Translations under genes and position numbers: made by a program
Notes under the pieces: generated by a model
Databases searched by the model: none
The model's input: only the letters and a program-made list of their open reading frames with translations
Told to the model about the DNA's origin: nothing
Shown here: in pieces, positions 991-25,147 of the stretch
How the letters are laid out: each line of letters begins with the position of its first letter
Position numbering within the stretch: position 1 is the stretch's first letter
DNA from: Flavobacteriales bacterium
GTDB lineage: Bacteria; Bacteroidota; Bacteroidia; Flavobacteriales_D; Crocinitomicaceae
Assembly (NCBI GenBank): GCA_947380375.1
Contig: CANCQX010000008.1
Coordinates: 1 to 44,064 of the forward strand
Reading direction: 5' to 3'
DNA: 44,064 nucleotides

Positions 991-2631
991 CTAATTATTT
1001 TCTAGATAAATTTCCCCTTTTTCATCAATATAAAATAGTGTGGTATGCCATCCAAATACTCCGAACTCATCACAATCCTCATAATTAGTAATTAGTTTAG
1101 ATATATTTGATACTGAATCCATTATTATAAATACATTATATCCATTATCGAAATCAAGATTTAAATCAAAAATATTAATCTTGAAATTTTCATTAAAAAA
1201 TAAATCACCGTTAGATTTGATTTTCCAACCTTTCCACTCATCTAATTCAATTAATTCTTTCTGATCATAATTTGTCTCCCAAAAATAGGTCGATTTATTA
1301 TATATGATTGATTTTATTTCCTTTTCAACTTCGTAATGATCTTCAAAAATCTTACCGAAGAATATGTCTTTTTCATTATTGTAAAATTGCCATGAAGAAT
1401 CTCCTTCTTTATTAATTTTTAAAAATGGCACACATGATAATGGATCAAATTCTAAAAGATTATTTTCGATAAATACTGATCCGTCTTTGTGAATGTAAAA
1501 AAGCGTAAAATAGTATTCCTCAATAACTAATTCTTCTTCAGTATCTATGAAGCCTCTAGAATCAATAGAATGGCGATAATGAGCAATAATCTTTGTAATA
1601 TTATTTTCAGAATTATAAAATTTGAATCCTTTTATTTTGCTTGTTTTTTGATTCCAACTTATCGAAAATAATTTTGGTATTTCTAAAATAAATTCGCCTT
1701 TGTAATATATTTGATCATGACCTATTAACTCCCAATCCATCCATTTATCTATCCAAAGTTCTTCATTATTATATACTGGTTTATTAAAAGTGCTCTTCCA
1801 AGGATTTATAAGATAAAATATGTTATTCCAAAGATTTTCTTCTCCTTTAATTCTTGAATTCATAACATCTAAAATGTCTTGATATTCAATCGTATGATGT
1901 TTAATTTCTAATTTTGTATTATATAATATCCATGACTCTTCACCCTCTCTATCTATTGTAAGAAATGGAACATCAAAATATTTATTTTCATTAAGCATTG
2001 AATATTCCTTAAATTTTTCTATCGTAGAATTAAAATTTGATGGTCTGTAATTTTGTAATAATTTAATGACACCTATCTTTTTCAACTCCCAAAAACACTT
2101 TGCAGTTGCTTGAATATCTGCCAAGGCATCATGAGCATCTTCGAAATCATGTTTAAATAAAAACCGATGAATTTCTTCTAGTTTTGGCCATTTATAACCA
2201 TAAGGACCACCGATTTTGCACAAATCGACAGTAGATTCCATGGTACAAATTTTCTCTTTTGAATCAAGAATGTTGTCCAATCCCATACGAATCAACTCTG
2301 ATCCTATAATTTTTTCATCGTAAGCCATATTGTGAGCAACAATAACTTTTGCTCGTTTTAAATGTATAGAAAATATTTCAAATACATCTTCAATATTACT
2401 TCCTCTCCGAGTTGCAATTTCTGCAGTAATTCCATGAATTTTGGAAGCGTCTTTTGGAATTGTGAAGCCATTTGGCTTTATTATCTCATTGCAAGAATGA
2501 ATTAAATTTCCGTCGAAATCATATACTAAATAGGCTATTTGGACTAAACGTGGCCAGTTCTCTAAATCTGTTATTGGTGCTTTCCAATTTTTGGGTAATC
2601 CAGTTGTTTCAGTATCGAAGAAAAGTATCAT
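991..2631 (-). CDS. DnaQ-like DEDDh 3'-5' exonuclease with duplicated C-terminal domain
   Basis: Residues 1-190 form a DEDDh exonuclease of the DnaQ/RNase T superfamily: DTE near the start (D6, E8), D105 in AHNMAYDE, and H167 with D172 in DAHDALAD. All five catalytic positions are present, so a metal-dependent 3'-5' nuclease acting on DNA or RNA ends is expected. Residues 221-391 and 401-546 are two copies of one unrecognised domain. Each begins VPFL-I--EG--SW, has a central D-W-W motif and ends TLFYI--G---EN. The gene is last in the tight part of the operon, 42 nt after the large helicase. The family includes PolIII epsilon and Cas-associated nucleases, but this domain arrangement is unfamiliar to me. 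The exonuclease call is secure; the role in defence is inferred from position. Confidence 0.85.
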   Translation of the reverse strand: MILFFDTETTGLPKNWKAPITDLENWPRLVQIAYLVYDFDGNLIHSCNEIIKPNGFTIPKDASKIHGITAEIATRRGSNIEDVFEIFSIHLKRAKVIVAHNMAYDEKIIGSELIRMGLDNILDSKEKICTMESTVDLCKIGGPYGYKWPKLEEIHRFLFKHDFEDAHDALADIQATAKCFWELKKIGVIKLLQNYRPSNFNSTIEKFKEYSMLNENKYFDVPFLTIDREGEESWILYNTKLEIKHHTIEYQDILDVMNSRIKGEENLWNNIFYLINPWKSTFNKPVYNNEELWIDKWMDWELIGHDQIYYKGEFILEIPKLFSISWNQKTSKIKGFKFYNSENNITKIIAHYRHSIDSRGFIDTEEELVIEEYYFTLFYIHKDGSVFIENNLLEFDPLSCVPFLKINKEGDSSWQFYNNEKDIFFGKIFEDHYEVEKEIKSIIYNKSTYFWETNYDQKELIELDEWKGWKIKSNGDLFFNENFKINIFDLNLDFDNGYNVFIIMDSVSNISKLITNYEDCDEFGVFGWHTTLFYIDEKGEIYLENN

Positions 2632-2673
2632 GTTGTTTTTTATAAACGTGTTTTATTCATCTAATTTTTTATT

Positions 2674-5600
2674 TCATTTATTCCCAATCACCGAATACAA
2701 CCTCAAAAATTCCTCCCAAACTTTTTTCTCTATTTCTTCAACTTGTTTCACTTCAAGATTACTTTTCAATTCCAAACCAGCCATTTTAACAAATGACTTG
2801 AATGAAAACAATTCGTTTGAAGAAGACAATTCCGATAGCATAAAAGAATCAGATGCAGGTGGTATTAACATGGATTCATTGAAACTAGAACCTCCCATTA
2901 TTTCCGTTACACTTTTCTCTGAAATTGAAATTTTACCAAACTCCTCTTGAAAACATGCCAAATAAAGTGATAAGTAATTATCAATGTTTGGAGTATTGCT
3001 ATTCGTCAAAAACCAGATCAATCGCTCCATTGAGTTTTTTGCCTGGATTAATCCCGTATCAATATTATTTGCGTTAGCGATTAGAAGTAGTTTCTTAACC
3101 GTTGCAGCATATTTTTTTGACTCAACAGACAATTCATCAAAGCACTCCTCTTCTTTATTGCTTTCGAAGCGCTTCATATCATCCCAAGATAAGGACCACG
3201 AATACATATTTGGGGAAGAATTTATTGCTTTTCGTATTTCGAGATCTTCGTAAAAACGCATGTGCTCTTTCGAAGCGTGATAACGATACCCATCTAAATA
3301 AACGACCACCTCTTTGTAGGCTATTAACTCGTTTGTATCTTCTATTGTTTCGCCATTACGGACAATTGAAGAGCAATTTATAACAAAATCTGCTCTCGTG
3401 TTTTTTTCTATCCCATGAATTTCTCCTAAAGTTACTTGAGGTGTAATTGTAAGATATATTATATCCTCATTTTTGGGCAATCCAATTTGGTAACACGTTA
3501 TTCCGTTGTCTTTAAATGATTTAAATGAGTATTTTTCATCGTCTTTGCGTTCTACGAATTTTTTCAACGCCATCGGAAATTTCTTTTCCAATTCACTTTC
3601 TTCAATCATTCCACTTTCGGTAAGTGACGAAATTCCTTGACTTACTGGCTCCCAATCTTTTGCAGATAAAACAATCTTTGAAAACAAGTCTTCCGCTGCG
3701 CTTCTGCTTAATGACTGTCTAATGTATTGATTCGAATATGACAAAATACAGCGATAACAACCGTCTTTCCCCTCTGATTTGCAAGAACAAGTCCTTATTG
3801 TATCGTATGCTTGTGTAAGAAGTTGAGTGAATTCAGTCGTGTCAAATAATTTTTGTAGATATCCTGTTCCACCTGGAACAGTGTCATACATTACCAAGTA
3901 CCTATCAAATCTTTCGTTTACAGCGTTAAACTCTGAATAAAATTCAAAAGCAATGTGATCCGGATTTCCTTTGTAGTATTTTTTTAAGCCCAACTCAAGT
4001 CCTACCTTGAACATTTCTTGTGTGGCTTCATTCTCAAATTCTTGGACTGGAAGTAATATTTTAATCGCCTCCGTTTGCATCTGTCTATACAAATAAACCT
4101 CTTCAAAAACTGCAAGTGAATCCTTTTTATCAGAATAATCAATGTCTTTATGCTTGCAATAGCCGTAGTGGAATTTTTTATCAAATTGAAGAACCTCTCT
4201 TGGTTTTGGTGTCGATTTACCACAATTCTTACAAGTAACAAAACCGTGACGAGGAACATCTTCAATTTGATTAATCGTTAAGTGATTCGAGGTCTGTAAA
4301 TTGATACCTAAATTTACTTTAGTTAATTCAACATCCTTAACATACTCAATTCCAAAAGGAATGGATTTCATACCCCAGGTACCTTCAATCGAATTAGGAT
4401 TAAAGTTAAAATGAGTTGAAATCATATAATTCTTTTGGTCTCGCTCATCTTTGGAATCTTTCAATGCCGATTTATTGCTCGAATTGACTGATTTAACAGA
4501 ATGCATTCGTGCAAATTTATGTTTGTTCGATGCCGCATTCCATGATTCGTGACCGCATTTAGGACAAGTGCCTTTTTCTGTTACTTTAATTTCTTCTTCT
4601 AAATGGTCACAATTGGAACAAAAACGCATTGTTGTAAGACTTGATTTCTCGCCAAACCAATCATATGTGTTGAGACCTGAGATTTCTAATTTATTCCCTT
4701 GACTGTAAAAGAAATTATCTGGCGCATATTCTTTCAATGCTGCTGAAGCAGAGCGAACGATTTCATAACTTTTTGTTATTGGCTCTTGCTCGGCACCTTC
4801 TGGTTTAAAACCATACACTTGAGCATTCAATGTCACTCCCGTTTCTGGAAACGCATAATTTGGAAGCACCCCTTCATTGGTTAAAAATTCAATGATTTGT
4901 CTGCCTTGAATGGACTTTTTTAATATCCAAATGCTCTTCTTCTCTTGTTCAAGTATTTTGCGCTCATCATCTTCTTTTCCAAGATTCTTGTCTTTTATTA
5001 CCTGCTCAATTTCTTTTTCCTTATCCAAAAGGAAGAATATTTCTTTTTTTAAATCCTCAAATACACTTCTAAGGCGTTTTGCAAAAGAACTATCAAAATC
5101 TCCCTCCAATGACTTTCTTATAGAATCCTCAAGAGATTGATCTATTTGCCCCTTATACAAACTGAAAAAACGATCAAGAATAGCAACATCTTTAACAATG
5201 AATGCCACCAGTCGATTGACAAAAAAAGCAATGTCAGTTGTACTGTTGGCTATTAAATTTAAATCAGTAATACGGTTTGGAATTTGGTTTGACGCTGGGT
5301 TTGACTTCGTCCAAGTGTCAAAACAATACGCTGTAAAATGTCTTGATAGAATATCTTTTGCATTTAGAAAACAGCCTGGAGTATTAATATCTCCTTGCAT
5401 CATTTCCATCGGTTCTTGATAGTAAAATAAATCGTGTGCTTTATTTTGAGCAAATGTCTCAATCAGTGCTGTCCCAGATGAACGACCTGCACGACCTATT
5501 CGTTGCAAAAAGTTTGAAGTAAGTGGCGGGACACTCGTGTTGATTGCCGTATTTAAGGAGCCAATATCAATCCCCATTTCCAATGTTGACGTTGCAACTA

Positions 5601-8600
5601 ATACATTGAGTGAATTGTAATTTGGCCTATTTTTAAAATCATCTTCTACATTCTCTCTAACTTGTCTTTCCAATACTCCAGTATGTTCTGAAGCAAAAAT
5701 ACGAGGTGAGTTTGTGCGATTATAAACTAAATTATAATAGTTCAATTTCTTTTTTGGGGAAAGAACATATTTTCCAGTGCAACGATAATCCATGCAAACA
5801 GATCCTTCCAATAGGTTATCAGTCGAATGAACTTGAACAGAAGAAGAACATTGATTACATTCAAAAGAAATCACTTCATTTCCTACCTTAATTTTGGAAG
5901 GATTTATCGCGAAATTTTCACCTTCTTTGGATGTATTAACATCTATTAAATCTTGTTCAGATAAAATTTTGAATAACTCTTCGTAAAACTCATTAATCAT
6001 TGCTGTATTTGAAGGAACAAGTTCAAAGGATTTTACAAAATAAGTATGGAACCAATTTGTTGTTTTAGCAAAAGTTGAATCTAAAACATTTTTTGTTTTT
6101 CCATTGGTACAAACCAATTTGGGGATTCTTGAATTTCTCTCGAAATACGTTCTATTCAAAAAATGACGTGAATCACGAGACCAGTTTAAATTAAAGAATG
6201 ACAAATCCTCTTGTCTAAACTTATTTAGGTACGGATGATTCAATGCACCACGAATCCGCATACGATGCAATAATATATTCAAAAATTGAACGAATGAAGA
6301 TTCTTCTACAACTTCCATATTGTTAGATTTCATCCAATCAAACATAGCTGTAAAGGCCATTTTCAATTCATCCAAATCAAATGAAACCGCAGAAGAACCA
6401 GTTTTTTCAAGCGTACGACCTATTTGAGCATTATAACCAAACTCCGATAAGACCTCCCAATAAACACGTAGATCAAATTCAGTTTCGAACTTTTTTGAGA
6501 ATTGTTTGGTTTGCTCATTCCGATACATTTCCACATCTGATTTCCCAATGTAATCCGAAGGAAAGAAACGCTGAAAATACGCATCCAATTGGCCATTGCC
6601 TGTTGGGTCAGCATGCGATTTCCAATAATTGATGAAGGTTTCTGAAAGTGTATCTAAGTCTATAGGTTTTCCAATATCATTAATGATTTTTTGAAGAGAA
6701 GAACGAAAAGTAAATCGGTAGTTTCGCGCTTGAACAAAACCGGCTTGATGCGCTGCATCTTGAACTCCATTGGTAAATTCTAAAACTTTACGGTATTGCT
6801 CTCCTCTTTTGTCCAAATCAGATGATAATACCTGACTTACAGAAACCGAGTTTAACGTAGCAATTCTTGTCCCAATAATACTTAAGGTATTCTGGGTGTT
6901 ACACTCTGGGCAAACATGAATTGATTTTTGATCTTTTACTTTTCTGTACCCTAAAACATGAAGGTAATTAGGGGTGTCGGCATCTCTGAATTTGAGATCT
7001 ACTTGATGAACATAAGGTGCTATTCCTTCACCGTCAAAGTCTTCTACAGCTTTGTGTTTTTCCGTCGCTGTATTTATGAAATAGATATTCTTATGATTGG
7101 TAAAATAATGTTCATAAATACCGTTAGGATCTCCCTCGAATTTATCGCGATTATCATGTTTTATAGCCATCCATCCGCTGGCGCCGCATTCTCTGCAAAA
7201 ATAAGGTGGTAAAGCAATATTATCGTCTTCTAAGGATATCTTGTCCTTCCAAGTGAATGACGGTTCGGCTGAAAATTCACGAAGTAAACCACTTAATTCT
7301 CTTACCCAAATTTGTATTTGTAGGAATAGAAAAGGAATCTTTCCCTTTTCATCTATTTTTGCTTCTGCAATTAACGCCAAAATGGAGGTTATCACTTCTT
7401 CTTTTGGGGAGTATCTATTTACCTCATCCATTAAAGGCAAGGAAGCATATCCTGGATTTATTGCATTCAATCGATCAATTAATTCTGTTATTGGAAGAAT
7501 GGATTTAGAACATATATCGCATAAGTCTTTTACGATTTTCAATTGCTTCAGTTGATCTGCAAGGTCTTTGGGTAAAATATCATCTGGTAATTGCCATAAT
7601 TTCTTTTGACGGATAATGTAATCCAGGTAATTTTCATTTATTCCCAATCGACTTTGCTGTAATCCAACAATTCGAGGAATAAATGTATCCAATTGGGTAT
7701 CTGGAATCGTAAAAAATTGATCGGCACTTAATCGATGTTCAACAATTACTGAATCTACATCAAATGTTTCTCCAAATACACTCGAAGCATATTCTGTCAG
7801 TAAGCGCGTCGAATCTGCCCCTTTACCAATTGTTGCTGAAGTTCCAACTGGACATAATTGTCCTTGTGGAATATTCAATTTAAGTTTCAAACGGCGTATT
7901 AAGTTCGCAACATCGGTTCCTTGAGCACCATCATAGGTATGTAATTCATCCAGAACCAAAAACTGCAAAAGAGTTGGATCTTCAAAATTGAATTTCCATA
8001 AATTGTGAAATTGATGTCGCAACAACCCATAATCCAACATTTTAAAGTTGGTTAGTAATATATCTGGTGGATTTGTTAAAATTTCATCCCGATTCTCAAT
8101 GATATGGGAGTCACCCATTGTTTTAGGGAACTTCGCTTTGTCTTTTCCTTCACCAATAAACAACCCAGCAGTTACATTATCCTTCAACAATGGATCATTG
8201 TAAATAATTTCCGCCAAACGTTTGGCTTGATCGGTAGCGAGGGCATTCATCGGATAAAGAATGATTACTTTAATCCCTGCTTTCCCTTTATTCTTATAAC
8301 AATAATCCAAAATTGGATATAGGAATGATTCGGTTTTCCCAGAACCCGTACCAGTTGTCAATAAGGTAGGTTCTGGTTTATGTCCATTTTCTGATGTGAG
8401 ACGTTGGAAGGCTTGAAATTGATGTTTGTACGGCGATAATTTTGGTTTTATTTGAAGTGGGATTTCCTCTCCACCCGTTTCCGTTTCAAAAGGTAATTTC
8501 AATGAAATATAGGGACCTTTGAAAATACCATCCGTTGGACTTTCAATAAAGTCGTAGAATGCCTTAGAAACAGCCTTTTCCTTAAAATCAAAGGTTGCTT

Positions 8601-8655
8601 TGAGGTACTCAATAATCGATTGTTTGACTTCGTAAGCCTGTTGTAGTGGGAGCAT
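2674..8655 (-). CDS. Giant DEAD/DEAH helicase with DUF1998/MZB domain and Vsr-like C-terminus (DruE/DrmAB-like)
   Basis: This 1993-residue SF2 helicase shows Walker A GTGSGKTE near residue 105, DELH near 235, SATIG near 273, motif V (TSTLEMGIDIG) near 1025 and motif VI (QRIGRAGR) near 1053. Between and after the helicase lobes are several Cys pairs of zinc-ribbon type (CRECG ~490, CPEC ~585, CSNC/CPKCG ~1345-1370, CKNCG). A DUF1998/MZB module with PGGTGYL and the Cys cluster CSC...CYRC lies near 1610-1635. The last ~350 residues contain ADFVI...VVVYLDGYRYH...D-EIRK...WSLSWDD (~1760-1820), the pattern of Vsr/MTES_1575-type nuclease folds. Length and layout match DruE of Druantia and a fusion of DISARM DrmA with DrmB. 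It abuts the 640-residue protein with no gap. Expected to translocate on or remodel nucleic acid; nuclease activity is inference. Confidence 0.85.
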   Translation of the reverse strand: MLPLQQAYEVKQSIIEYLKATFDFKEKAVSKAFYDFIESPTDGIFKGPYISLKLPFETETGGEEIPLQIKPKLSPYKHQFQAFQRLTSENGHKPEPTLLTTGTGSGKTESFLYPILDYCYKNKGKAGIKVIILYPMNALATDQAKRLAEIIYNDPLLKDNVTAGLFIGEGKDKAKFPKTMGDSHIIENRDEILTNPPDILLTNFKMLDYGLLRHQFHNLWKFNFEDPTLLQFLVLDELHTYDGAQGTDVANLIRRLKLKLNIPQGQLCPVGTSATIGKGADSTRLLTEYASSVFGETFDVDSVIVEHRLSADQFFTIPDTQLDTFIPRIVGLQQSRLGINENYLDYIIRQKKLWQLPDDILPKDLADQLKQLKIVKDLCDICSKSILPITELIDRLNAINPGYASLPLMDEVNRYSPKEEVITSILALIAEAKIDEKGKIPFLFLQIQIWVRELSGLLREFSAEPSFTWKDKISLEDDNIALPPYFCRECGASGWMAIKHDNRDKFEGDPNGIYEHYFTNHKNIYFINTATEKHKAVEDFDGEGIAPYVHQVDLKFRDADTPNYLHVLGYRKVKDQKSIHVCPECNTQNTLSIIGTRIATLNSVSVSQVLSSDLDKRGEQYRKVLEFTNGVQDAAHQAGFVQARNYRFTFRSSLQKIINDIGKPIDLDTLSETFINYWKSHADPTGNGQLDAYFQRFFPSDYIGKSDVEMYRNEQTKQFSKKFETEFDLRVYWEVLSEFGYNAQIGRTLEKTGSSAVSFDLDELKMAFTAMFDWMKSNNMEVVEESSFVQFLNILLHRMRIRGALNHPYLNKFRQEDLSFFNLNWSRDSRHFLNRTYFERNSRIPKLVCTNGKTKNVLDSTFAKTTNWFHTYFVKSFELVPSNTAMINEFYEELFKILSEQDLIDVNTSKEGENFAINPSKIKVGNEVISFECNQCSSSVQVHSTDNLLEGSVCMDYRCTGKYVLSPKKKLNYYNLVYNRTNSPRIFASEHTGVLERQVRENVEDDFKNRPNYNSLNVLVATSTLEMGIDIGSLNTAINTSVPPLTSNFLQRIGRAGRSSGTALIETFAQNKAHDLFYYQEPMEMMQGDINTPGCFLNAKDILSRHFTAYCFDTWTKSNPASNQIPNRITDLNLIANSTTDIAFFVNRLVAFIVKDVAILDRFFSLYKGQIDQSLEDSIRKSLEGDFDSSFAKRLRSVFEDLKKEIFFLLDKEKEIEQVIKDKNLGKEDDERKILEQEKKSIWILKKSIQGRQIIEFLTNEGVLPNYAFPETGVTLNAQVYGFKPEGAEQEPITKSYEIVRSASAALKEYAPDNFFYSQGNKLEISGLNTYDWFGEKSSLTTMRFCSNCDHLEEEIKVTEKGTCPKCGHESWNAASNKHKFARMHSVKSVNSSNKSALKDSKDERDQKNYMISTHFNFNPNSIEGTWGMKSIPFGIEYVKDVELTKVNLGINLQTSNHLTINQIEDVPRHGFVTCKNCGKSTPKPREVLQFDKKFHYGYCKHKDIDYSDKKDSLAVFEEVYLYRQMQTEAIKILLPVQEFENEATQEMFKVGLELGLKKYYKGNPDHIAFEFYSEFNAVNERFDRYLVMYDTVPGGTGYLQKLFDTTEFTQLLTQAYDTIRTCSCKSEGKDGCYRCILSYSNQYIRQSLSRSAAEDLFSKIVLSAKDWEPVSQGISSLTESGMIEESELEKKFPMALKKFVERKDDEKYSFKSFKDNGITCYQIGLPKNEDIIYLTITPQVTLGEIHGIEKNTRADFVINCSSIVRNGETIEDTNELIAYKEVVVYLDGYRYHASKEHMRFYEDLEIRKAINSSPNMYSWSLSWDDMKRFESNKEEECFDELSVESKKYAATVKKLLLIANANNIDTGLIQAKNSMERLIWFLTNSNTPNIDNYLSLYLACFQEEFGKISISEKSVTEIMGGSSFNESMLIPPASDSFMLSELSSSNELFSFKSFVKMAGLELKSNLEVKQVEEIEKKVWEEFLRLYSVIGNK

Positions 8656-10578: not shown

Positions 10579-10589
10579 GATGTTAATTT

Positions 10590-11759: not shown

Positions 11760-11764
11760 AATTT

Positions 11765-14317: not shown

Positions 14318-14320
14318 TAC

Positions 14321-14947: not shown

Positions 14948-14950
14948 ATA

Positions 14951-16075: not shown

Positions 16076-16127
16076 AAAAATATAGTTTTATCATATTCTT
16101 GTTCTATTCCTTCATGAAAATCCATAT

Positions 16128-17249
16128 TTAATGGTATTTATATCGTTCATATTTAGATCTAAATAATACTTCGTACGAAATATGTATTTTAGAATTACAA
16201 GTCAAATTAATGACTCCTGATTTAATCGATTTCATTGCCACACTTGATTTAAAAATATTCCATTTATTTTGAAGTTCTTCATTTCCATTATTTTGAAATA
16301 AAATTGCAACATTGTTTCTTTTGTTTTCTTTTAAAATATCATTTACTTCTTCGATCATCTTTTCAAAATCGAAATTTAACAAAGACCTTAAATAGTTTAT
16401 GTTTAAAATGATGCTTTTATTTTGATTAAAAAGTTCTTGAAATGGCTCCGGTGTGTAATAAATCCAAGAGTTTTCTTGAACTTTCTTAACATTATTGATA
16501 TAGTTAAACGAAATATCACCTAATTCAATATTTAATTTATGCCTGCCGTAACTAAATGTGAAATTATCTAAAAACCAACTACTATTACGAGGGTAAATTA
16601 CATTAAATAGTGGAGGAAACAAATCTGAAACCCCAGTCTCCAAAATATTAAAGTACATATCCCAATCAGCAGATCTATCGAGATGTTTAATGAAATCTTC
16701 AGCATAATAATTAAAATCAGAATCTCTAAAAAAATAAGATACTATTGGAAAATCTGATAAATTCTGTTCTTTCCAGATAGAAGATTTAATAGGATTCAGA
16801 TCTTCTGGCGCTTCCCAAAATGTCGTTGGTTTATTATTCTTAAAAACTTCTGAAAATGCTAATGATACTGGAAGTGTGCTACTGCCAAAATCCATAAATA
16901 CAAGAGCATTATCAGAAGCGAAAGCCACTTCAAATGTGCCATCCCATAATTCTGAGTAAATCAAATAAGTACTTTCAAATAATATTGGGAAATAATAATA
17001 GTTATACAAACAAATTAATTCATCTTTTGAAAGTTCTTTATCACTTTTGTTATGAGCCTGTGAGATAACTCCTGAACCCTTATTTAATAAAGAATAACAA
17101 TGATGCTTTTTATCTTTTGACAAGACATTGAGACACCAAGCAATTGAATTTTGATTATCAAATTCGGTAATAAACTTTTTTAATAATTCTTTAATTGCCA
17201 ATGGCGTATTGGGTGAATTTATTAAATTGTGTATTTCTGTTCTTTCCAT
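16128..17249 (-). CDS. Hypothetical protein of the defence-like operon
   Basis: I do not recognise this 373-residue protein. It starts MERTEIHNLINSPNTP, has no signal peptide or hydrophobic helix, and appears to be a globular alpha/beta protein rich in aromatic residues. The first ~60 residues are helical. A stretch near 105-125 (DNALVFMDFGSSTLPVSLAF) resembles a hydrophobic core strand pair with a glycine-containing turn but matches no motif I know. The C-terminus is basic (RSKYERYKYH). It follows the methyltransferase by 5 nt and precedes the pseudo-helicase by 52 nt. Its slot directly after the methyltransferase could hold a specificity or inhibitor partner, but that is a guess from position. 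Confidence 0.75.
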   Translation of the reverse strand: MERTEIHNLINSPNTPLAIKELLKKFITEFDNQNSIAWCLNVLSKDKKHHCYSLLNKGSGVISQAHNKSDKELSKDELICLYNYYYFPILFESTYLIYSELWDGTFEVAFASDNALVFMDFGSSTLPVSLAFSEVFKNNKPTTFWEAPEDLNPIKSSIWKEQNLSDFPIVSYFFRDSDFNYYAEDFIKHLDRSADWDMYFNILETGVSDLFPPLFNVIYPRNSSWFLDNFTFSYGRHKLNIELGDISFNYINNVKKVQENSWIYYTPEPFQELFNQNKSIILNINYLRSLLNFDFEKMIEEVNDILKENKRNNVAILFQNNGNEELQNKWNIFKSSVAMKSIKSGVINLTCNSKIHISYEVLFRSKYERYKYH

Positions 17250-17254
17250 ATATT

Positions 17255-20200
17255 CTAATCCTTAAACACCCCCTCAAAATACCCCCAAGCAACTTTATAA
17301 TCTTCCACACGATCACACTTATCAAAAGGTGCATAATACGTTACGACTTTTCCTTTGTATAACTCGCTTTTCTCGATAGTATGCTCGTAGGTTACGCCTT
17401 CTTTGTAATCTTTTATAGTGTTCCATTCTGCGCGATCTAGACCAACTCCTGTTAAACCTTTAGAACACGTGAATACAATGTTTCCTTTGGTATCGTACCA
17501 GGTATCGTCTTCGTTTTGCTGAAGCACTGGGAATTGCACATTGTAAATGAGAATTAACTCCTCCAAGGTTAAGCCCAAAGCCATTGCGGTGATGACATCT
17601 ATCTCCACCAAGGCTTGTCTGCGCTCAAACCAATTGCGTAAGGGTGTTTCCCATTTCCATTCTTTGGTTAAACCGCTAAAGGATTTTAAACGGGTATCTT
17701 TTTTACTCCAATTGTCTTTTTTGAAGGATTCTTGAAAATTACGTTCCCAAAGAGGTGAATAGTGCTTGTTTAGGCAATTTAAATGGAGAGTTCTAATGAA
17801 CAATTGAGGAACAAATTGCTTGTTTATACCCAATAACAATTTTTTTAAAGAACCCGAATAAAAGCCACCTTTCCCAATAATTTTTACATAAAAATCAATT
17901 ACTAATGAACTAGAAATAGCTGACAATTCTAATAGTCTAGGTTCATTTTCAAAGGTGATGGAAGTAACAGTATTAATATGAAACGTATTTGGTGGAAAAA
18001 GTGCTGGCTGAATTGTTCTTTCACCTGTTATACTTAACATTTGACTGAATACTAATTTATATTTATCACTTTCAGTGTAGTTGAAATTCTTATCTGGAAT
18101 AAAGTTAACGTTGCTAATGAAATCTATTTCAATATCAGTTAGGCTAATTACATCATAATCTGAATTTAATTTAGAAATTTCTCGAGGTGTTTTGTATAAT
18201 GGATTTCCAACAAAAAAATGAGGGCCGCCAATTATTAATTCATTACTCGTTATTATTGGACTTTTTGATTTTAATAGTCTTTCAATTTTATTATCATTTT
18301 GTGCATTTGTTTCGTGAAATCCTTCATCAATAATATTTTCAAAATCTTCTACTTTAGTTTTAAGTGCTGCTAACTTTTTAATTATATAAATTATGGATTG
18401 TGTATGTAGATTCACCAATTTCGCACTTTCAAACTCTTCAGAATTTTCAAAAAAATTGGATAATAATTTTAGTTCTTCATCTTTAATTCTAACTATTCTA
18501 TCATTATGTGGTTGAATATTCCAAACCATTTTATTACTCTTCTCGTCTTTGATTTTAAAACCACCAGCTAAGCCAGAACCATTATGAACAAAACAACCAT
18601 CAATAGTAAAAGGATGAAATAAATTATTGATTGATAGAAAATCTATATTACTTCTCCTTCCAGAATAAATATGTGCTCCATAAAAATTATGATGGTCAAT
18701 TTCAGCGAATAACATCAGTTCATTTTTGAATTGAAAATGATATTTCAATCTATTATAAATTTCTTTACGTAAACGTTGCCCGTTAGGATCGTCATAAACG
18801 CTTTCAGGGTGCAATAATCCTAGAAATCCTTTTTCAGAAATTAAAGAAAAACTATTTTCAATTACACATTTGTACAAATTAGTTTGTTGTCCTTTAAGCA
18901 AAGGATAGTTTTGAAACGCATTCATAAAAGTAGCAGAAGAGTCAGTTCCAATATATTCTTCGAAATAAACTTCTTTCTGTGTTTCGTTTTGAAAATATGA
19001 ATTTTGAAGTTCTTTTGCTTTTGTAGCAGAAACTTTTCGTATAAAAACCTCAGGAAATTTTTCACTCATTAAACTTTTTTCCTCAAAAGTTATTTTTAAC
19101 CACGGTGGATTTCCGACAATTACATCAAAACCACCTCTTTCTTTAAAAACTTCTATAAACTCCAACTGGTTGTGAAAGAAACGGTGTGTTTCAGCCAAGA
19201 GTTTAACTTCTTGCAAGCGCTCTTTGTTGTCAAATAAATCGCTTTGTTGTGTTTTTTCAATGATTTGTTGTTGAGCATATTCTTTAACAGAAGGTTCTTC
19301 CATCACCAAAGTCAATTGGCTTTCTTGGCTGTAGGAAGAAACTATTTTTTGTTCTATTTTGGTATCAGACGTAAGATCTAAACTTAAAATGCTGGTAAGG
19401 TCATTGAGATACTGCTGCCTGCTTGGTAAAAAATCTGCTTTGCGCACATCCCAAAACCACAAACTGCACCAATAGTCCATCACCATTTTCAACTTATAAT
19501 AAGGCGCAGATTCGCGGTTACGTTTGTCGTTAAGAAATTCTTTTTGCTCGTAATTCGAGAAACTCAATCCACCTTGGAACTCCTCTTGCTTCGAGCCTCC
19601 CCAAATGTCGTTTTTGTTTTTCGTGAGGTAGTTCAATTCTTTTTGGAATTGGTAATGCTCTTCTAATAAAGCATCAATGCGTTCACAGATGGTTTTTAAA
19701 TGTTCAATTTCATCACCATTGTACGGTTTCAGCATTTCTGTTTTCCAAGTGGTTACACCCGAAGCAAATGTTGGAAATTCACTCTTTAATAAACTAATCC
19801 CCGCACTTGGTACCATTCCTTTATCTGGTAGCAAGAAATGGTAGATTTGGTCGTTTTTGCGTTTAATTTTATGCACACCGAACTCTAAGAGAGTTGGTTC
19901 TTTTTCCCACCATTTCTTTTTGAGATCTTTTTCATCGTACACCTTAAACCAAGCACCCACAACAGCATTTCCTACTGCTAATCGGTTTGCAAAGAAAGGT
20001 GTTTCCATATCTTTGTGAATCACATTCAACCACAAAGACAGTTTACCCAACTCAATCGCTGTTGGGTTAATATCTACTCCATACGTATTATTGGTAGCAA
20101 TGTAAGCCTTTACTTTTTGTAATTCCTCTCTGTATTTTTCAGGAGAAATCTTCTTTTTCACTTCTTTTTGTCTAGAAGTTAAATAGGCTTCTGATAATTG

Positions 20201-22012
20201 GTTAATCAACTCATTATGAAACGCCCCAGCTCCCATTGCAGGCTCTAGTAATTTCATATCCAACAAGTCCAAGGCTTGCAATTCACCAGTGTCCACCTTT
20301 TCCAAAATAGACTTGAGTGTATACTTCACCGTACATTGTGTCAGCACCTCAGGTGTATAGTAGGAGGCCGATTTTTGTCGGTCCCGTCCACTTAAACGGT
20401 ATACAAATTTTCCTTTCGGTATTACTTGGTCGTTTCCATCATCACCCTTCAATACTTCATCATTATGAAAATCATCTCTACGAGAGCGCTTCACTAATAA
20501 AGTCCCTTCTTGTGGTTTTCCTTTTGGATGCACTTCAATGTAATCTTCCTCCGCATAAAAACCACGGTATGCCAACAAACTTTCGTAAACACTTCCTAAT
20601 TGATTGATTCCAAGGTTAGCGTAGGATATTCTTCCACGGTTTTTCCCTCTCTTCTCTTTCGATAACGATAATTGGCAAATAACATCCTGCCAAATGAAAT
20701 TACGAAATTTCACTCCTTTCAAATGGTACAATTTCTTCTCACTAAAAAGCGGCGAATCGATTTTACGGATTCTGAAACTTTTGTGTTTTTGCGAAGATAA
20801 AGTTTCTCCCGATTTCAGAGTTTTAGTCTCCACTTCTGATTCACGATAACCTTCACTCAATAAATCAAACAATCGCTTCAATGAATCATGGAAGAAATAA
20901 CCATTTCTACTGTGGTCGGTAATCAATTGTGTTTGCTCTAAATCGCGCAACATTTCCAAGGAATATCCTTTTTGATACACATCATCAGAAATCGGTAGAA
21001 TATCTAAATCTGTTCTAGACTCCGCATAAAAAATAAACAACAAACGATACACCATACTCAAGCAATCGTCTTTCATTTCGCGCTCAAACGTATCATCTGT
21101 TTCGTCGAACTCTTCTTTGCTTATCTCCTTTTTGAAGTAAAGTGCTTCATTTGCTAAAGCCTCCACCGCATGGATTATCCCTTCTTTTAAATCTTTGGTT
21201 ACTTCGTACGCACTTTTGTGGCTGTCTTCTTCCAGCTGTCCCATCAATACCATATCACTATCTGGAGCAAGCATTTCTTTTGAAAGCAACAAGTAGAAAA
21301 GTGAGTAATATCTTCTGTCAATAGTACCCTCATAAAAGAGTTCTTCTAGATCAAACTGCAAGTAGGAACCTTTGAACCATTTCTCTACTTCAATCAAGAA
21401 AACAATATTACCAGCCAACAATAAAATAAATTGTGGTCTATCTTTTTGATCTATCAAGCATAATTCATTAATTGCTTTGTTAATGATAACAGGAGAGATT
21501 TTTAACTCCTCTCCAATTTCAAAAACTCTACTCCATTGACTTTTGTGATAGCGTTGTTCACTTGTTAAATGTTCCTCAGTATCGATATTGTAACGTTGTT
21601 CAAAAAGACCATCTGGCTCTTCATCCCCTTCTTTTATCAAAGGTTGCATTTCCATGATAAGTAAATGCAATTTATTCCCTCTGTATAATTTATGACGAAC
21701 AGGTAACACATCAAATTCGGAGAAATGAAATGGCTCATTGTATTGGTGATGATCACCATCGAATCCAAGTGCATTTAAAAGCAACGAATGAAACTGGTGA
21801 GTTTCAAATATCTTGTCTTTTACACGTAAACGTCCTTCAATAATCGACTGTTTGTATCGGTAGTATTTATCTTTTAAAGGGGTAATGCGTTTTTGAAGTT
21901 CTTTCTGATCTTCAACTGCATAACCTGATTTATCGTGAACCTTTTTTACAAAATCCTCATCAAAATAGTTTGAAGAGAAAAATTCGCCTGTATTATCTAT
22001 AAATTTTATCAT
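17255..22012 (-). CDS. Large N6-adenine DNA methyltransferase (PglX/DrmMI-like)
   Basis: This 1585-residue protein contains the gamma-type amino-methyltransferase motifs: SAM-binding motif I LEPAMGAGAF near residue 590, GVDINPTAIELGKLSLWL near 650, and catalytic motif IV DVIVGNPPW near 967. YYTPEVLTQ just before motif I is also typical. The ~310-residue insertion between these blocks and the ~600-residue C-terminal part, which should include the target-recognition region, are characteristic of PglX of BREX/Pgl, DrmMI of DISARM and type IIG enzymes. The N-terminal ~500 residues contain a region (~70-120) reminiscent of the degenerate nuclease part of type IIG proteins, but I see no clear catalytic triad. 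It follows the SNF2 helicase gene by 3 nt, the same order as drmD-drmMI in class 1 DISARM. Expected role: marking host DNA as self. Confidence 0.88.
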   Translation of the reverse strand: MIKFIDNTGEFFSSNYFDEDFVKKVHDKSGYAVEDQKELQKRITPLKDKYYRYKQSIIEGRLRVKDKIFETHQFHSLLLNALGFDGDHHQYNEPFHFSEFDVLPVRHKLYRGNKLHLLIMEMQPLIKEGDEEPDGLFEQRYNIDTEEHLTSEQRYHKSQWSRVFEIGEELKISPVIINKAINELCLIDQKDRPQFILLLAGNIVFLIEVEKWFKGSYLQFDLEELFYEGTIDRRYYSLFYLLLSKEMLAPDSDMVLMGQLEEDSHKSAYEVTKDLKEGIIHAVEALANEALYFKKEISKEEFDETDDTFEREMKDDCLSMVYRLLFIFYAESRTDLDILPISDDVYQKGYSLEMLRDLEQTQLITDHSRNGYFFHDSLKRLFDLLSEGYRESEVETKTLKSGETLSSQKHKSFRIRKIDSPLFSEKKLYHLKGVKFRNFIWQDVICQLSLSKEKRGKNRGRISYANLGINQLGSVYESLLAYRGFYAEEDYIEVHPKGKPQEGTLLVKRSRRDDFHNDEVLKGDDGNDQVIPKGKFVYRLSGRDRQKSASYYTPEVLTQCTVKYTLKSILEKVDTGELQALDLLDMKLLEPAMGAGAFHNELINQLSEAYLTSRQKEVKKKISPEKYREELQKVKAYIATNNTYGVDINPTAIELGKLSLWLNVIHKDMETPFFANRLAVGNAVVGAWFKVYDEKDLKKKWWEKEPTLLEFGVHKIKRKNDQIYHFLLPDKGMVPSAGISLLKSEFPTFASGVTTWKTEMLKPYNGDEIEHLKTICERIDALLEEHYQFQKELNYLTKNKNDIWGGSKQEEFQGGLSFSNYEQKEFLNDKRNRESAPYYKLKMVMDYWCSLWFWDVRKADFLPSRQQYLNDLTSILSLDLTSDTKIEQKIVSSYSQESQLTLVMEEPSVKEYAQQQIIEKTQQSDLFDNKERLQEVKLLAETHRFFHNQLEFIEVFKERGGFDVIVGNPPWLKITFEEKSLMSEKFPEVFIRKVSATKAKELQNSYFQNETQKEVYFEEYIGTDSSATFMNAFQNYPLLKGQQTNLYKCVIENSFSLISEKGFLGLLHPESVYDDPNGQRLRKEIYNRLKYHFQFKNELMLFAEIDHHNFYGAHIYSGRRSNIDFLSINNLFHPFTIDGCFVHNGSGLAGGFKIKDEKSNKMVWNIQPHNDRIVRIKDEELKLLSNFFENSEEFESAKLVNLHTQSIIYIIKKLAALKTKVEDFENIIDEGFHETNAQNDNKIERLLKSKSPIITSNELIIGGPHFFVGNPLYKTPREISKLNSDYDVISLTDIEIDFISNVNFIPDKNFNYTESDKYKLVFSQMLSITGERTIQPALFPPNTFHINTVTSITFENEPRLLELSAISSSLVIDFYVKIIGKGGFYSGSLKKLLLGINKQFVPQLFIRTLHLNCLNKHYSPLWERNFQESFKKDNWSKKDTRLKSFSGLTKEWKWETPLRNWFERRQALVEIDVITAMALGLTLEELILIYNVQFPVLQQNEDDTWYDTKGNIVFTCSKGLTGVGLDRAEWNTIKDYKEGVTYEHTIEKSELYKGKVVTYYAPFDKCDRVEDYKVAWGYFEGVFKD

Positions 22013-22015
22013 CTC

Positions 22016-24853
22016 CTATGCGTTAAAAAATACGGCCATTACTTTGATATATGCTTCTTGGTCAAGCGCCAACATGTCTTTCATAAACTGACTAGAACCA
22101 TCTGCAATGTTGTGAATTTCTTCTAACTGACGTTCTTTTTTGGTTTTAGTAAAAATGGTTTCAGTAGTTGTTTCAAAATTGATTTCCAAATTCTTCAAAG
22201 ACGCTGATCTCCAGTTCGAAAGGTGTTCTTCGTAATCAACTGACTTTTCTAACATCACATCTCCTAAGCGTTTTTGTTCTGCCAACATCCATTCATCTTG
22301 AGCATAATCAATAACTTCCGTTAATCGACTGCTTAACTCTGTGAGTTCATTGCTAGAAATATCCTCTGTATATAACTCCTTGTTCAACTCAAATCGTTCC
22401 ACAAAATCAGCAATTGAAATACATTCAATTACTTTCTTACCGTCGTGTCCAACTGCAAAAAAATCTGAAATAACAGGCTGTCCAAGATTATTAGATACTT
22501 GTCCGTGTAAAATGTACCAAGCCGTTCCTTTTTCAAATTTCCCTGAAAGTTTAGCCGCCAATGCTTGGTCTTTAGGAACACTAGCTTCCAATTTGGTCAT
22601 ATAATACTTGATAGTAGGATGCAAGTCATACAAAATTTGGAATGCAGCCCAATCACCTTTTTTCTTACGCGCTTCATCGATGGCCTTTTGAACTTTTGAT
22701 TTATCTAAAGTCAAACGAAAAGGTTCACTTACTTTTGGTTTAGATTCTGGAGGTAAATCATACAAAATAGCATCTAGTTCTTTGGTATTTAGCAATTCCA
22801 AGTATTCGTCTTCATTATCGATTGAATAATCTCTGCTTGAAATCAAACCAGCACCGTCTAAATGTTTGAATAATTCACTGTAATAACTGAAATCGTTTCG
22901 ATACACAGTAGTAACTTCTTCCATTGGCTGCTCTGTAATGGTTGCAGCAGTGTTTTCACTTTCAGTAAAAAGTGAGCTGAAATCCATTTTAGAAATATCC
23001 CCAATGAAATTTTCATCTTTATTTTCAATGGCTGAAATGACAACGGCCTCTTCCTTGTGGGAATCGTGTAATTTCATCACAGAACCGGCATCTCCTAGAG
23101 TTTTATACACTTCCTCCTCCTTCTCAGTCAATTTATTGATAATATGTAAATCTGTTTTAATGTTTTCATCTTCAGAATGAGCGACCAAATAATAGATATT
23201 CGGTGTTTCTTTTTGTCCATATCGATCAATACGTCCGTTACGTTGTTCCAAGGTAATCAAAGACCAAGGAATATCATAGTTTACCATTTGGTGGCAATAG
23301 TAATGTAAATTCACACCTTGAGAACCAGCATCGGAACACAATAAAATACGCACCTTGCTATCTTCCTTACCAAAGTCTTCAATGATTGCTTGTTGTTCAA
23401 TATCGCTATCACTTCCACTGAAGGATTGAACGACATCATCGGCAAGATCGAAATCACGTTTTAGATTTTCTTCAAGGTATTTCAGTGTTGCAATGCGCTC
23501 GGCAAAAATAACAAAACGGTCGTGAGTTTTCTTTCCCGCCCATTTCATTTCTTCCAAAGTCGCTTTCAATTTTGCGTATTTGCTGTCCTTTTTACTCGCA
23601 AGAATGGCTTTCAATAAATCTTGATGTTCCTCGAGAATATCAATACTATCTTCATATCGATCAGAGGAAGTAGCCAACTCTTTCACTTTCGCTAAACGAT
23701 TTTCTATGGATTGCAAGGCAGCAGCAGGCGAAGACATAAATGCTTTGAAAATCATCACCGAAAACAGAAAATCATCTTTTGCTTTTCCGTCTTCTTTCAA
23801 AGAACTCAACGCTTTCATTTTTAGTCCTTGCTGATACGCTAAAAAGGCTAACTCCTCTGCTGTCAAATCAGTTTTAAGTCGCACGATTTTGCGCTCCTGG
23901 AAGTTCTTTCGAACAGTTGCATCGTCAATATCATTTTTGAAACGACGCACATAGTATGGCTCAACATCGGCTTTAGAGTAATTCCCATTTTTCGGAATTG
24001 CAGTTGGCTCAATCATATTAATAATGTTAGCGAAACTCTCCTTTTTACCGTTATGAGGCGTTGCAGAAGTCAAAATAAGCGAATCACATCTGCCAGCAAG
24101 AAATTGCGCCAAATCTCCACGTTGACTGCTGTTATTAGCAACTGTATGGCATTCATCAATTACGATTACATCCCAATGTGATTTTTCAATGTAATGTCTG
24201 AATTTGGCGTTGTTCTTCAATGTATCAATGGATACAATGGTTTTATCGTAATAATCAAATGGATTCTTATTGGCCGGAAGTTGTGTTTTAATGCGAGCGA
24301 TACCCTCACTGTCCAATCGAACTAATGGAATAGCAAAACGATTCCATAATTCTTGCTGAAACTGTCCTAAAATTGACTTTAAAGCCAAAACCATAATACG
24401 TTTTCCTTTTCCTCTTTTGAGCATTTCAGCAAGGAAAATTCCAACTTCAATTGTTTTCCCCAAACCTACACCATCTGCAATCAAGAGACGTTGCTTGGGT
24501 AATTGTAGCGCTTTAAGCGTAGGAGTTAATTGATAATCAGAAAGATTAAAAGCCGCCTTATCTGCAACTGTAATTTTATCTGAAAAGATGGTCGAATTTC
24601 GAATATGCGTTTCAATATATAATTTCGTTTTGCGATAACCATTGTCTTCATCAGCAATAAAAACAGTATTTATTGGATCTACTGGCGTGATGTCATCATC
24701 TATTTTAGTGTCAAAAGTGAAACGTTTCCCTTTTACCAACTCGCTAATTCCTTCTGTTTGAAGAATATGCGTACCATCTGAATTAGCGATGATATTCGTT
24801 ATTAAAAAATCTTCTCCTCTTGTGGAAATTCGTTGGCCGGTTGTTAAATTCAT
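22016..24853 (-). CDS. SNF2/HepA-type helicase (DrmD-like)
   Basis: This 945-residue SF2 ATPase has motif I GVGLGKTIE near residue 130, DECH near 232, SATPHNG near 265, and the C-terminal lobe with SDAGSQGVNLHYY followed by QRNGRIDRYGQ near 515-545. The arrangement is that of RapA/HepA-like SNF2 translocases, not of classical unwinding helicases. In class 1 DISARM a helicase of this type (DrmD) is encoded immediately before the adenine methyltransferase, and the same order holds here. The C-terminal ~300 residues are helical with several coiled-coil-like stretches. The start ATG overlaps the stop of the upstream XRE gene by 4 nt, so translation is coupled. Probable role: a double-stranded DNA translocase that inspects or loads onto unmodified DNA. 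Confidence 0.88.
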   Translation of the reverse strand: MNLTTGQRISTRGEDFLITNIIANSDGTHILQTEGISELVKGKRFTFDTKIDDDITPVDPINTVFIADEDNGYRKTKLYIETHIRNSTIFSDKITVADKAAFNLSDYQLTPTLKALQLPKQRLLIADGVGLGKTIEVGIFLAEMLKRGKGKRIMVLALKSILGQFQQELWNRFAIPLVRLDSEGIARIKTQLPANKNPFDYYDKTIVSIDTLKNNAKFRHYIEKSHWDVIVIDECHTVANNSSQRGDLAQFLAGRCDSLILTSATPHNGKKESFANIINMIEPTAIPKNGNYSKADVEPYYVRRFKNDIDDATVRKNFQERKIVRLKTDLTAEELAFLAYQQGLKMKALSSLKEDGKAKDDFLFSVMIFKAFMSSPAAALQSIENRLAKVKELATSSDRYEDSIDILEEHQDLLKAILASKKDSKYAKLKATLEEMKWAGKKTHDRFVIFAERIATLKYLEENLKRDFDLADDVVQSFSGSDSDIEQQAIIEDFGKEDSKVRILLCSDAGSQGVNLHYYCHQMVNYDIPWSLITLEQRNGRIDRYGQKETPNIYYLVAHSEDENIKTDLHIINKLTEKEEEVYKTLGDAGSVMKLHDSHKEEAVVISAIENKDENFIGDISKMDFSSLFTESENTAATITEQPMEEVTTVYRNDFSYYSELFKHLDGAGLISSRDYSIDNEDEYLELLNTKELDAILYDLPPESKPKVSEPFRLTLDKSKVQKAIDEARKKKGDWAAFQILYDLHPTIKYYMTKLEASVPKDQALAAKLSGKFEKGTAWYILHGQVSNNLGQPVISDFFAVGHDGKKVIECISIADFVERFELNKELYTEDISSNELTELSSRLTEVIDYAQDEWMLAEQKRLGDVMLEKSVDYEEHLSNWRSASLKNLEINFETTTETIFTKTKKERQLEEIHNIADGSSQFMKDMLALDQEAYIKVMAVFFNA

Positions 24854-25053
24854 TTCAATTCCATTTTATTTGACACTAACAATTCTTTCACGTCTACCGA
24901 AAGTATTTCAGCGATTTCATAAAGTGTTTCAACTCTAGGTTGTTGTCGATTTTGCACATAGGCATTTATCATATTATAACTTTTACCTAGCTTATCTGCC
25001 AACCATCGTTGAGACCTACCTTGATTATCCAATATTTGCTTTATGCAATTCAT
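24850..25053 (-). CDS. Small XRE-type helix-turn-helix regulator
   Basis: This 67-residue protein is almost entirely one Cro/C1-type helix-turn-helix: RSQRWLADKLGKSYNMINAY is the core, followed by PRVETLYEIAEILSVD, the usual helix 4-5 pattern. It opens the minus-strand operon and shares the 4-nt ATGA overlap with the SNF2 helicase gene. Such small XRE genes commonly act as autorepressors or timing switches for restriction-modification and other costly defence operons. The 94-bp gap to the divergent reverse transcriptase contains a 14-bp palindrome that could be its operator. It may therefore control both the operon and the RT genes; that is inference. Confidence 0.85.
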   Translation of the reverse strand: MNCIKQILDNQGRSQRWLADKLGKSYNMINAYVQNRQQPRVETLYEIAEILSVDVKELLVSNKMELK

Positions 25054-25085
25054 AATTATTAAAACAATGAATGTGAAAAATACAA

Positions 25086-25099
25086 AATATAATTATATT
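25086..25099. promoter_or_regulatory. 14-bp palindrome in the divergent promoter region
   Basis: AATATAATTATATT is a perfect palindrome in the 94-bp region between the divergently transcribed XRE gene and reverse transcriptase. A dimeric XRE protein would bind such a site. The whole gap is AT-rich, so a chance palindrome is quite possible. Confidence 0.3.
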
Positions 25100-25147
25100 A
25101 AAGTGTAAATTAAATGAGATATATTATGTATTTTTCCAATCTAAATT

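Follow-up and report, generated by a model that had tools for sequence, protein, structure and literature searches.

We analysed a stretch of 44,064 nucleotides (nt) from a Flavobacteriales bacterium (GenBank assembly GCA_947380375.1, contig CANCQX010000008.1), here called the window, which is one entire contig of a draft genome of 3.05 Mb in 202 contigs. Eleven open reading frames (ORFs) lie on its minus strand at 991-25053, ten large ones and an XRE-type regulator of 67 amino acids (aa). Three of the large genes very probably encode ArmA, ArmB and ArmC of ARMADA, an anti-phage system validated experimentally in a 2025 preprint (Bell et al., PMC12458937). Between armB and armC stand six genes: ORPH, pSF1, AlkB, a methyltransferase-Hsp70 fusion, a small superfamily 1 (SF1) helicase gene called SF1 here, and LINK. 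The locus appears to be a modular ARMADA variant and not a system without relatives, with an architecture that is real, unusual and partly conserved. The reading we favour, at a probability of roughly 0.45, is that SF1, LINK and the Hsp70 fusion take the place of the ARMADA protein ArmD, and that AlkB and the methyltransferase act on exposed strands. The sequence supports the identity of the core, the retention of its active residues, the absence of ArmD, the recurrence of both added modules elsewhere and their joining by gene fusion.

According to passages of the preprint, three genes define ARMADA: a BrxHII/RapA-like helicase, a PglX-like methyltransferase and a YprA-like helicase. In Type II ARMADA, ArmD (a RelE-UvrD fusion) is nearly always added, in a strict gene order; in E. 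coli all four Arm proteins are required, protection being lost without ArmD, and the defence is direct and non-abortive (PMC12458937). The ten large proteins of the window were covered by family scans (Pfam, PADLOC and NCBIfam); the XRE gene lay outside these scans. The ArmA-like SNF2/RapA helicase (945 aa, 22016..24853) has DrmD/BrxH matches among the PADLOC matches listed (DrmD, 330 bits) and is 35% identical to ArmA of E. coli ATCC 8739. The ArmB-like N6-adenine methyltransferase (1585 aa, 17255..22012) matches PADLOC REase_MTase_IIG with 1640 bits and DrmMI with 177 bits, and shows 38% identity to ArmB of the same strain. The ArmC-like YprA helicase (1993 aa, 2674..8655; 33% identity to ArmC) carries an MrfA Zn-binding domain and a C-terminal Vsr-like motif region, and its best PADLOC match is DruE (345 bits). 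The order ArmA-ArmB-ArmC is that of Type II.

All six residues that were mutated in ArmA, ArmB and ArmC in the preprint are kept in the window proteins: ArmA K136/D236 correspond to K133 and D233 (Walker residues), ArmB G605/N971 to G594 and N968 (NPPW), and ArmC K110/D234 to K107 and D236. The preprint mutants were made in the NCTC 12900 proteins and the mapping runs through ATCC 8739, which has the same residues with the same numbers. A tree was built from 22 YprA proteins, and an 18|4 split with 100/100 support puts the window protein and ATCC 8739 ArmC together on the side with 18 rows; outside are four rows, the long-branched DruE III and three proteins taken as Type I by gene order. The YprA helicase is placed by this tree in the Type II ARMADA clade, and a deep subclade (100/100) joins it with the proteins of L062, a relative described below, and of genome G142. 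The motifs RADF...VYLDGYRYH...WSLSWDD (about 3175-3399) align with 15 homologues, and Pfam reported no Vsr domain. At its C terminus the window ArmC is shorter than most aligned Type II proteins (2058-2133 aa), and even shorter Type II proteins are found in G215 (1982 aa) and G207 (1827 aa). The original prediction, made from the letters alone, held that the eleven genes fit no named defence system. With three of the eleven identified as ArmA, ArmB and ArmC by the tree and the conserved residues, a wholly new system is rejected.

Relatives of the added genes were sought by a pattern-based scan with the methyltransferase-like domain of the fusion, covering one genome each of 84,980 species. It gave 69 pattern matches and 28 confirmed loci; the domain is fused to Hsp70 in two of them, L061 and L062. 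These two and the window are the three loci in which the core, AlkB, the fusion, SF1 and LINK were found together. L061, from a metagenome-assembled genome (MAG) named Chryseobacterium gleum, is 97% identical to the window at the nt level over 9.5 kb and is cut by contig ends inside the methyltransferase and YprA genes. L062, from a Chitinophagaceae MAG, is more distant, with 70% identity for AlkB, 72% for the fusion, 76% for SF1 and 52% for LINK, and 62%, 63% and 55% for the SNF2, methyltransferase and YprA proteins of the core. Both have the order MTase-(ORPH)-AlkB-fusion-SF1-LINK-YprA, ORPH being found in L061 only, and the spacing of 0-12 nt from the Hsp70 fusion to YprA is kept between the window and L062. 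A chance arrangement is not an issue, because the SNF2-MTase-AlkB-(MTase-Hsp70)-SF1-LINK-YprA order recurs in L062 at 52-76% identity. The added genes are, as far as the relatives described below go, two modules that also occur apart from ARMADA: an AlkB-methyltransferase pair and an Hsp70-SF1-third-gene trio. No report of ARMADA with Hsp70 or AlkB was found in the open-licence literature, and the words 'AlkB' and 'Hsp70' do not occur in the main text of the ARMADA preprint, supplements aside (PMC12458937).

The first module consists of AlkB and METHYLTRANSFERASE. AlkB (208 aa, 14321..14947) is predicted to be an ALKBH3/ALKBH2-like dioxygenase with its HxD...H...R residues intact (Pfam 2OG-FeII_Oxy_2, E 2.3e-33); its best solved relatives are ALKBH3 (127.5 bits) and ALKBH2. 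The fusion protein (850 aa, 11765..14317) comprises a class I S-adenosylmethionine methyltransferase-like domain (residues 1-297), an Hsp70 ATPase (328-735; Pfam HSP70, E 1.7e-23) and a short C-terminal tail. Of the 28 loci, 24 have AlkB on the strand of the methyltransferase-like gene and directly upstream of it, 23 times within 83 nt or overlapping and once at 666 nt; no AlkB is upstream in L064 (contig edge), L068, L081 and L083. Seven further loci have AlkB upstream in four cases (L007, L008, L010 and L043), none in L044 and L045, and downstream in L046; L043 is the same place as L080 on a Mucilaginibacter contig (G363). By their record titles, the 28 loci belong to Cyanobacteriota, Bacteroidota, Acidobacteriota, Gammaproteobacteria and Poribacteria. 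The pair lies on plasmids in Synechocystis, about 5 kb away from type III-B CRISPR genes, and in Picosynechococcus it adjoins DUF1156/DUF499 genes. Four other genomes of 395 sampled Bacteroidota carry the domain as short unfused ORFs. In two Bacteroidota loci (L044 in G353 and L045 in G385), DUF1848, the methyltransferase-like gene and an SF1 gene of about 400 aa stand in a row; in Planktothrix an annotated DUF1848 gene is beside the pair on the opposite strand. AlkB was detected in only four of 50,697 phage records, giving no evidence of phage carriage, and a comparison with viral contigs gave no relative of the methyltransferase-like domain, the fusion or SF1. In G453 (L094, 4623-10664), AlkB overlaps the gene of a 1504-aa DpdF/RecQ-like helicase with an N-terminal methyltransferase-like motif, which was rejected by profile comparison as a relative of the window domain. 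A 307-aa gene with weak ZorA-like matches follows this helicase gene, 2.6 kb from the Hsp70-SF1 trio of the same genome.

The methyltransferase-like domain was modelled with AlphaFold2 from 22 sequences (predicted local distance difference test, pLDDT, 90.8). Its best structure matches are mitochondrial small-subunit assembly chains, with Z scores of 18.4-21.2 against 14.8 for the next fold; we take these chains to be METTL17/Rsm22 from the title of 8om2. Foldseek E-values do not separate the METTL17/Rsm22 chains (9.6e-8) from NNMT-type folds (1.8e-7). Pfam found Methyltransf_34 alone, in six of the 22 members (best E 8.9e-4), and comparing the methyltransferase profile with the sequences of solved structures returned nothing meaningful. 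G95, E99 and D123 are invariant and G93 is nearly so. In the model, METTL17/Rsm22 is the nearest fold; a shared fold shows no function.

These structural matches are what would be expected of a two-armed DNA and RNA defence, in which the added genes serve as an arm aimed at RNA or ribosomes and replace the RelE RNase of ArmD. The Rsm22-like methyltransferase would then write, and AlkB erase, RNA base methylation, blocking or sparing translation. ALKBH3 acts on RNA besides single-stranded DNA (ssDNA). Parts of the literature point the same way: the preprint describes a RelE-like RNase domain in ArmD (PMC12458937), and passages of the CoCoNuT paper propose that CoCoNuT Hsp70s bind RNA and that the Hsp70 and SF1 parts are RNA- or ribosome-directed (PMC11090510). 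The Hsp70 protein on an Antarctobacter plasmid (L098, 9118-11997) adds a weak N-terminal HEPN_Swt1 match (E 0.0015, below the cut-off) and an Rx4H motif at residue 96. The Pfam scan found no RNase domain in the modules of the window, and the METTL17/Rsm22 likeness is structural only, with the close Foldseek values and the few Methyltransf_34 matches given above; both argue against an RNA arm, which we consider improbable.

The second module, in the window, is Hsp70-SF1-LINK. SF1 (389 aa, 10590..11759) is a minimal UvrD-like helicase with motifs intact (K39, D112; Pfam UvrD_C and UvrD-helicase). LINK (640 aa, 8656..10578) has a conserved N-terminal part of about 380 residues and a low-complexity C-terminal part, and matches no Pfam family at the cut-off. 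Relatives of SF1 were found in L062, G453, G488, G159 and Antarctobacter. Hsp70, SF1 and a third gene follow one another in this order in G453, G159 and the Antarctobacter plasmid pSMS3-3. MzaC- and MzaE-like genes are upstream of the trio in G453, which belongs to the same family as the window genome. In G159, of another family, the trio is behind non-ARMADA SNF2-like and IIG-type methyltransferase genes with two small genes between; its Hsp70 is read as two ORFs and hence is split or misassembled. G488 has SF1 and the third gene at a contig end. The third gene of G159/G488 is a homologue of LINK (hhalign 93.9%) and, in turn, of the G453 third gene (94.4%); a direct match between the window LINK and the G453 gene was unsupported. 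The SF1 profile is rare, being present in three of 349 genomes of the order and two of 395 of the phylum (the window's own genome, counted in both samples, and G159 in the latter). It was found in none of 398 genomes of the phylum of G741, a set with no positive control. LINK had no match in plasmids.

All five aligned Hsp70 proteins retain G(I/M)DFGTSxTV and D(L/F)GAGTxD, and the N terminus varies: it is the methyltransferase in the window, and little is present there in G453 and G159. The HEPN_Swt1-like N terminus of the Antarctobacter protein suggests an exchangeable effector on Hsp70. One could extend this to a mobile defence module, Hsp70-SF1-LINK, whose Hsp70 carries a METTL17/Rsm22-like methyltransferase (window), a HEPN RNase-like effector (Antarctobacter) or none that is recognised (G453, G159). 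Such a module would plug into DNA-methylation-based systems in place of their second helicase and, through AlkB, add chaperone-gated writing and erasing of methyl groups, with ORPH meeting changing phage factors. This extension is speculative and, taken as a whole, unlikely.

ArmD of ATCC 8739 was searched against 14 Bacteroidota-type genomes and 15 loci. A full-length ArmD, 35-50% identical with E-values of 6e-126 or better, adjoins YprA in eight of the nine Bacteroidota ARMADA loci that carry no modules (G142, G344, G270, G246, G207, G392, G215 and G284). The three module-carrying draft genomes, G000 (that of the window), G743 (that of L062) and G744, gave only generic UvrD-level matches with E 9e-12 or weaker, and G159 and G453 likewise gave only weak UvrD-type matches. 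No ArmD is found beside the window YprA (the contig ends 990 bp past DnaQ). The exception among the module-free loci is G278, which has SNF2, methyltransferase and YprA genes, no ArmD beside YprA and only a generic UvrD match elsewhere; its locus (L056, 6987-20757) is an ARMADA core with neither ArmD nor modules. In eight selected named ARMADA-core records, YprA is followed in all eight by the gene of a protein of about 700-780 aa, annotated as UvrD or as an ATP-dependent helicase in seven and as hypothetical in one. The absence of ArmD goes with the presence of modules (ArmD in 8/9 loci without modules and in 0/3 genomes with them). The wider search left the odds of a replacement unmoved, because this distribution and the exception G278 pull in opposite directions. 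We put functional replacement of ArmD by SF1, Hsp70 and LINK at about even odds.

The same distribution bears on nested independent systems, in which two unrelated cargo modules have entered an insertion hotspot at the armB-armC junction and act alone, for instance as a defence or repair unit of their own, ARMADA itself being inactive or independent of ArmD. Other inserts are indeed found at this junction, an AbiEi/AbiEii-like pair in G142 (L041, 11913-13607) and a 282-aa gene in Haematobacter (L110, 15996-16844), both modules occur in loci without ARMADA genes, and G278 has neither ArmD nor modules. As reported in the preprint, canonical ARMADA is unprotective without ArmD (PMC12458937). Independent cargo is harder to reconcile with a gene order and a tight spacing from the Hsp70 fusion to YprA that the window and L062 still share at 52-76% identity, with the distribution of ArmD in the eight loci and three genomes just described, and with the position of the trio behind a non-ARMADA SNF2-methyltransferase pair in G159. 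We consider it rather unlikely.

Several findings weigh against the ArmD-replacement reading. The set is found in three loci only, two of which are the 97% identical pair, and the three module-carrying genomes are all drafts. The lack of ArmD next to YprA is readable only in the window and G743, as L061 ends inside YprA. G278 shows that a locus can lack ArmD with no visible substitute. The YprA of L062 groups in the tree with that of G142, which has ArmD and no modules; therefore the modules were gained twice, lost once or moved, and synonymous sites are saturated between the loci and do not decide this history. Nothing in its PADLOC matches marks SF1 as especially close to ArmD, the best being C3a187 (60.6 bits), with GajB at 46 bits, and no homology to LINK was detectable in the third gene of Antarctobacter. 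Finally, when one large neighbour protein was scanned at each of ten loci with AlkB-methyltransferase pairs, one of the ten had a PADLOC match at 1e-5 (L075), so the pair is not specifically made up of defence genes. AlkB families repair DNA. The mostly unmatched neighbours would suit an ordinary restriction-modification or DNA-repair island, with AlkB and its methyltransferase neighbour repairing alkylation, Hsp70 as a housekeeping-like chaperone and no anti-phage role for the added genes. The fusion to Hsp70, the conserved embedding of the genes inside an ARMADA operon and the trio near PADLOC-matched defence-type genes in G159 and G453 make such an island very improbable.

Under the reading that the Hsp70 module substitutes for ArmD, we infer that the locus is active against phages, as follows. 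ArmB would most likely mark or inspect host DNA. ArmA, as an SNF2 translocase, and ArmC would engage invading DNA, probably at ssDNA-containing intermediates; the related YprA helicase DruE is reported to load on such intermediates (PMC13192584). The invading DNA would be cut through the action of ArmA and ArmC, the latter with its Vsr-like nuclease region, without death of the cell. A complex of SF1, LINK and the Hsp70 fusion would stand in for ArmD, and within it the Hsp70 ATPase may gate assembly or activation. The fused methyltransferase and its partner AlkB would act on base-methylated single strands laid bare by the helicases, so that phage nucleic acid is stripped of protective methyl groups or the host's own is protected. 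This specific role of AlkB and the methyltransferase is a doubtful part of the scheme.

The remaining members are variable or doubtful. ORPH (373 aa, 16128..17249) is a hypervariable orphan with no Pfam or NCBIfam match and a weak PADLOC match to PDC-M13C (E 8.7e-4). Its interior is 52-67% identical to L061 at the nt level, between neighbours at 84-100%; the protein is 43% identical with conserved ends. No match to ORPH was found in G743 and G142, plasmids gave none to ORPH or pSF1, and its predicted structure has a mean pLDDT of 31 (two sequences). In block comparison, the window at 5474-20177 and L061 are 100% identical over stretches of the methyltransferase, Hsp70 and SF1 genes and 82-90% elsewhere, the last stretch of LINK falls to 84-90%, and pSF1 is a clean presence/absence difference. 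Read in this way, the pair forms a mosaic made by recombination, in which ORPH diverges most. The divergence of ORPH is as expected under diversifying pressure, two alleles being too few for a selection test. pSF1 (374 aa, 14951..16075) is predicted to be an ATPase-dead paralogue of SF1 (23% identity, E 4e-19, no Walker A or B); it is absent from L061 and L062 and was rejected as a core part. DnaQ (546 aa, 991..2631), a DEDDh exonuclease (Pfam RNase_T, E 2.8e-15), follows YprA after a 42-nt gap and its membership is doubtful. Neither a DnaQ counterpart nor ArmD comes after YprA in L062 (G743), and DnaQ was rejected as a conserved part. Other DnaQ-like stretches occur elsewhere in the same genome, one of them stop-interrupted and 60% identical to the window DnaQ (G000:C178:2249-2812).

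Taken together, the claim that the eleven genes form one set stood in part. AlkB, the methyltransferase-Hsp70 fusion, SF1 and LINK accompany the core in three loci; ORPH is missing in one of two relatives, pSF1 in both and DnaQ in the sole readable one. The original prediction had also said that independent occurrence of the genes in relatives would speak against it, which proved half true, as two independent modules are combined with ARMADA. Its descriptive claims fared well. Domain calls for the ten large proteins (SNF2/DrmD-like, Eco57I-type methyltransferase, 2OG-Fe(II) AlkB, Hsp70, UvrD-like SF1, DEAD plus MrfA Zn-binding helicase and RNase_T/DEDDh exonuclease) agree with the family scans, and the pseudo-SF1 is real. 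The layout of eleven same-strand ORFs with gaps of 0-11 nt, and 52 and 42 nt at two junctions, matches save for one 4-nt overlap: in transcription order the gaps are -4, 3, 5, 52, 3, 3, 5, 11, 0 and 42 nt. From the shared strand and this spacing, the eleven genes would form an operon. Terminator-like sites on both strands of 5500-25400 show no excess (8 seen, 8.6 expected). The overlap is that of the XRE gene (24850..25053; helix-turn-helix type read by eye) with the SNF2 gene, and in L062 another helix-turn-helix-like gene, also read by eye, likewise overlaps SNF2 by 4 nt.

The predicted integrase that marks the island was borne out as a large serine recombinase (29319-30935); at its 3' end the final codons run into a tRNA-Arg gene on the opposite strand (29319-30962 together). 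An exact repeat of at least 13 nt of the tRNA-Arg end, as the far edge of the island, was not found in the window at 1-29300; the left border is outside view because the window is the entire contig. Right of the operon stand, in order, a divergent UG19-type reverse transcriptase and its partner, a gene with a MerR-type domain, the serine recombinase and tRNA-Arg. The reverse transcriptase (25148-27519, plus strand; PADLOC RT_UG19, 363 bits) is overlapped by 4 nt by the 215-aa partner gene (RTas1465, E 2.8e-12), and the two, divergent from the operon, are a candidate DRT defence pair.

ARMADA, a four-part system in its tested E. coli form, thus exists without ArmD, and a concrete candidate for the replacement can be named. 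Two orphan modules are tied to each other by the fusion protein and to a validated defence core, and because of these ties phage plating could be used to test their functions. It would be unexpected, if true, for Hsp70 and AlkB enzymes to take a working part in DNA-directed immunity. The question of a bacterial role for METTL17/Rsm22-like folds gains new relatives.

Among known systems, the likeness to class 1 DISARM and Druantia noted earlier is also drawn by the ARMADA preprint (PMC12458937). The PADLOC matches listed for the ten operon proteins include no PglZ, BrxC or BrxL of BREX, no separate DrmB and no DrmC of DISARM, and no DruA-D or DruH of Druantia, which agrees with the absences first noted. 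The window shares with class 1 DISARM a DrmD-like SNF2 protein and a DrmMI-like methyltransferase, and differs in having helicase and DUF1998 region in a single protein and a YprA of ARMADA type; membership in DISARM was rejected on the missing DrmB/DrmC and the type of YprA. With Druantia it shares DruE as the best match of the giant helicase. E. coli DruE III is outside the 18-row ARMADA set on its long branch and the window YprA groups with ArmC, and Druantia was rejected on this and on the missing DruA-D/DruH. CoCoNuT (type II/III) also combines an Hsp70-like protein with an SF1 helicase, according to parts of PMC11090510; the ten window proteins gave no Pfam match of McrB-type GTPase or McrC type. 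The Hsp70-SF1 trio is not described in the HEPN-domain passages of PMC3710099. The unnamed pair of AlkB and a METTL17/Rsm22-fold protein has the same gene order as in the window in the 24 loci counted above and differs in that its methyltransferase is elsewhere free or carries other extensions, being fused to Hsp70 in L061, L062 and the window only. The closest system is ARMADA Type II: the window shares its SNF2/RapA-like ArmA, PglX-like ArmB and YprA-like ArmC, their order, the clade and the active residues, and differs in that no RelE-UvrD ArmD was detected and in the six genes that it carries between armB and armC.

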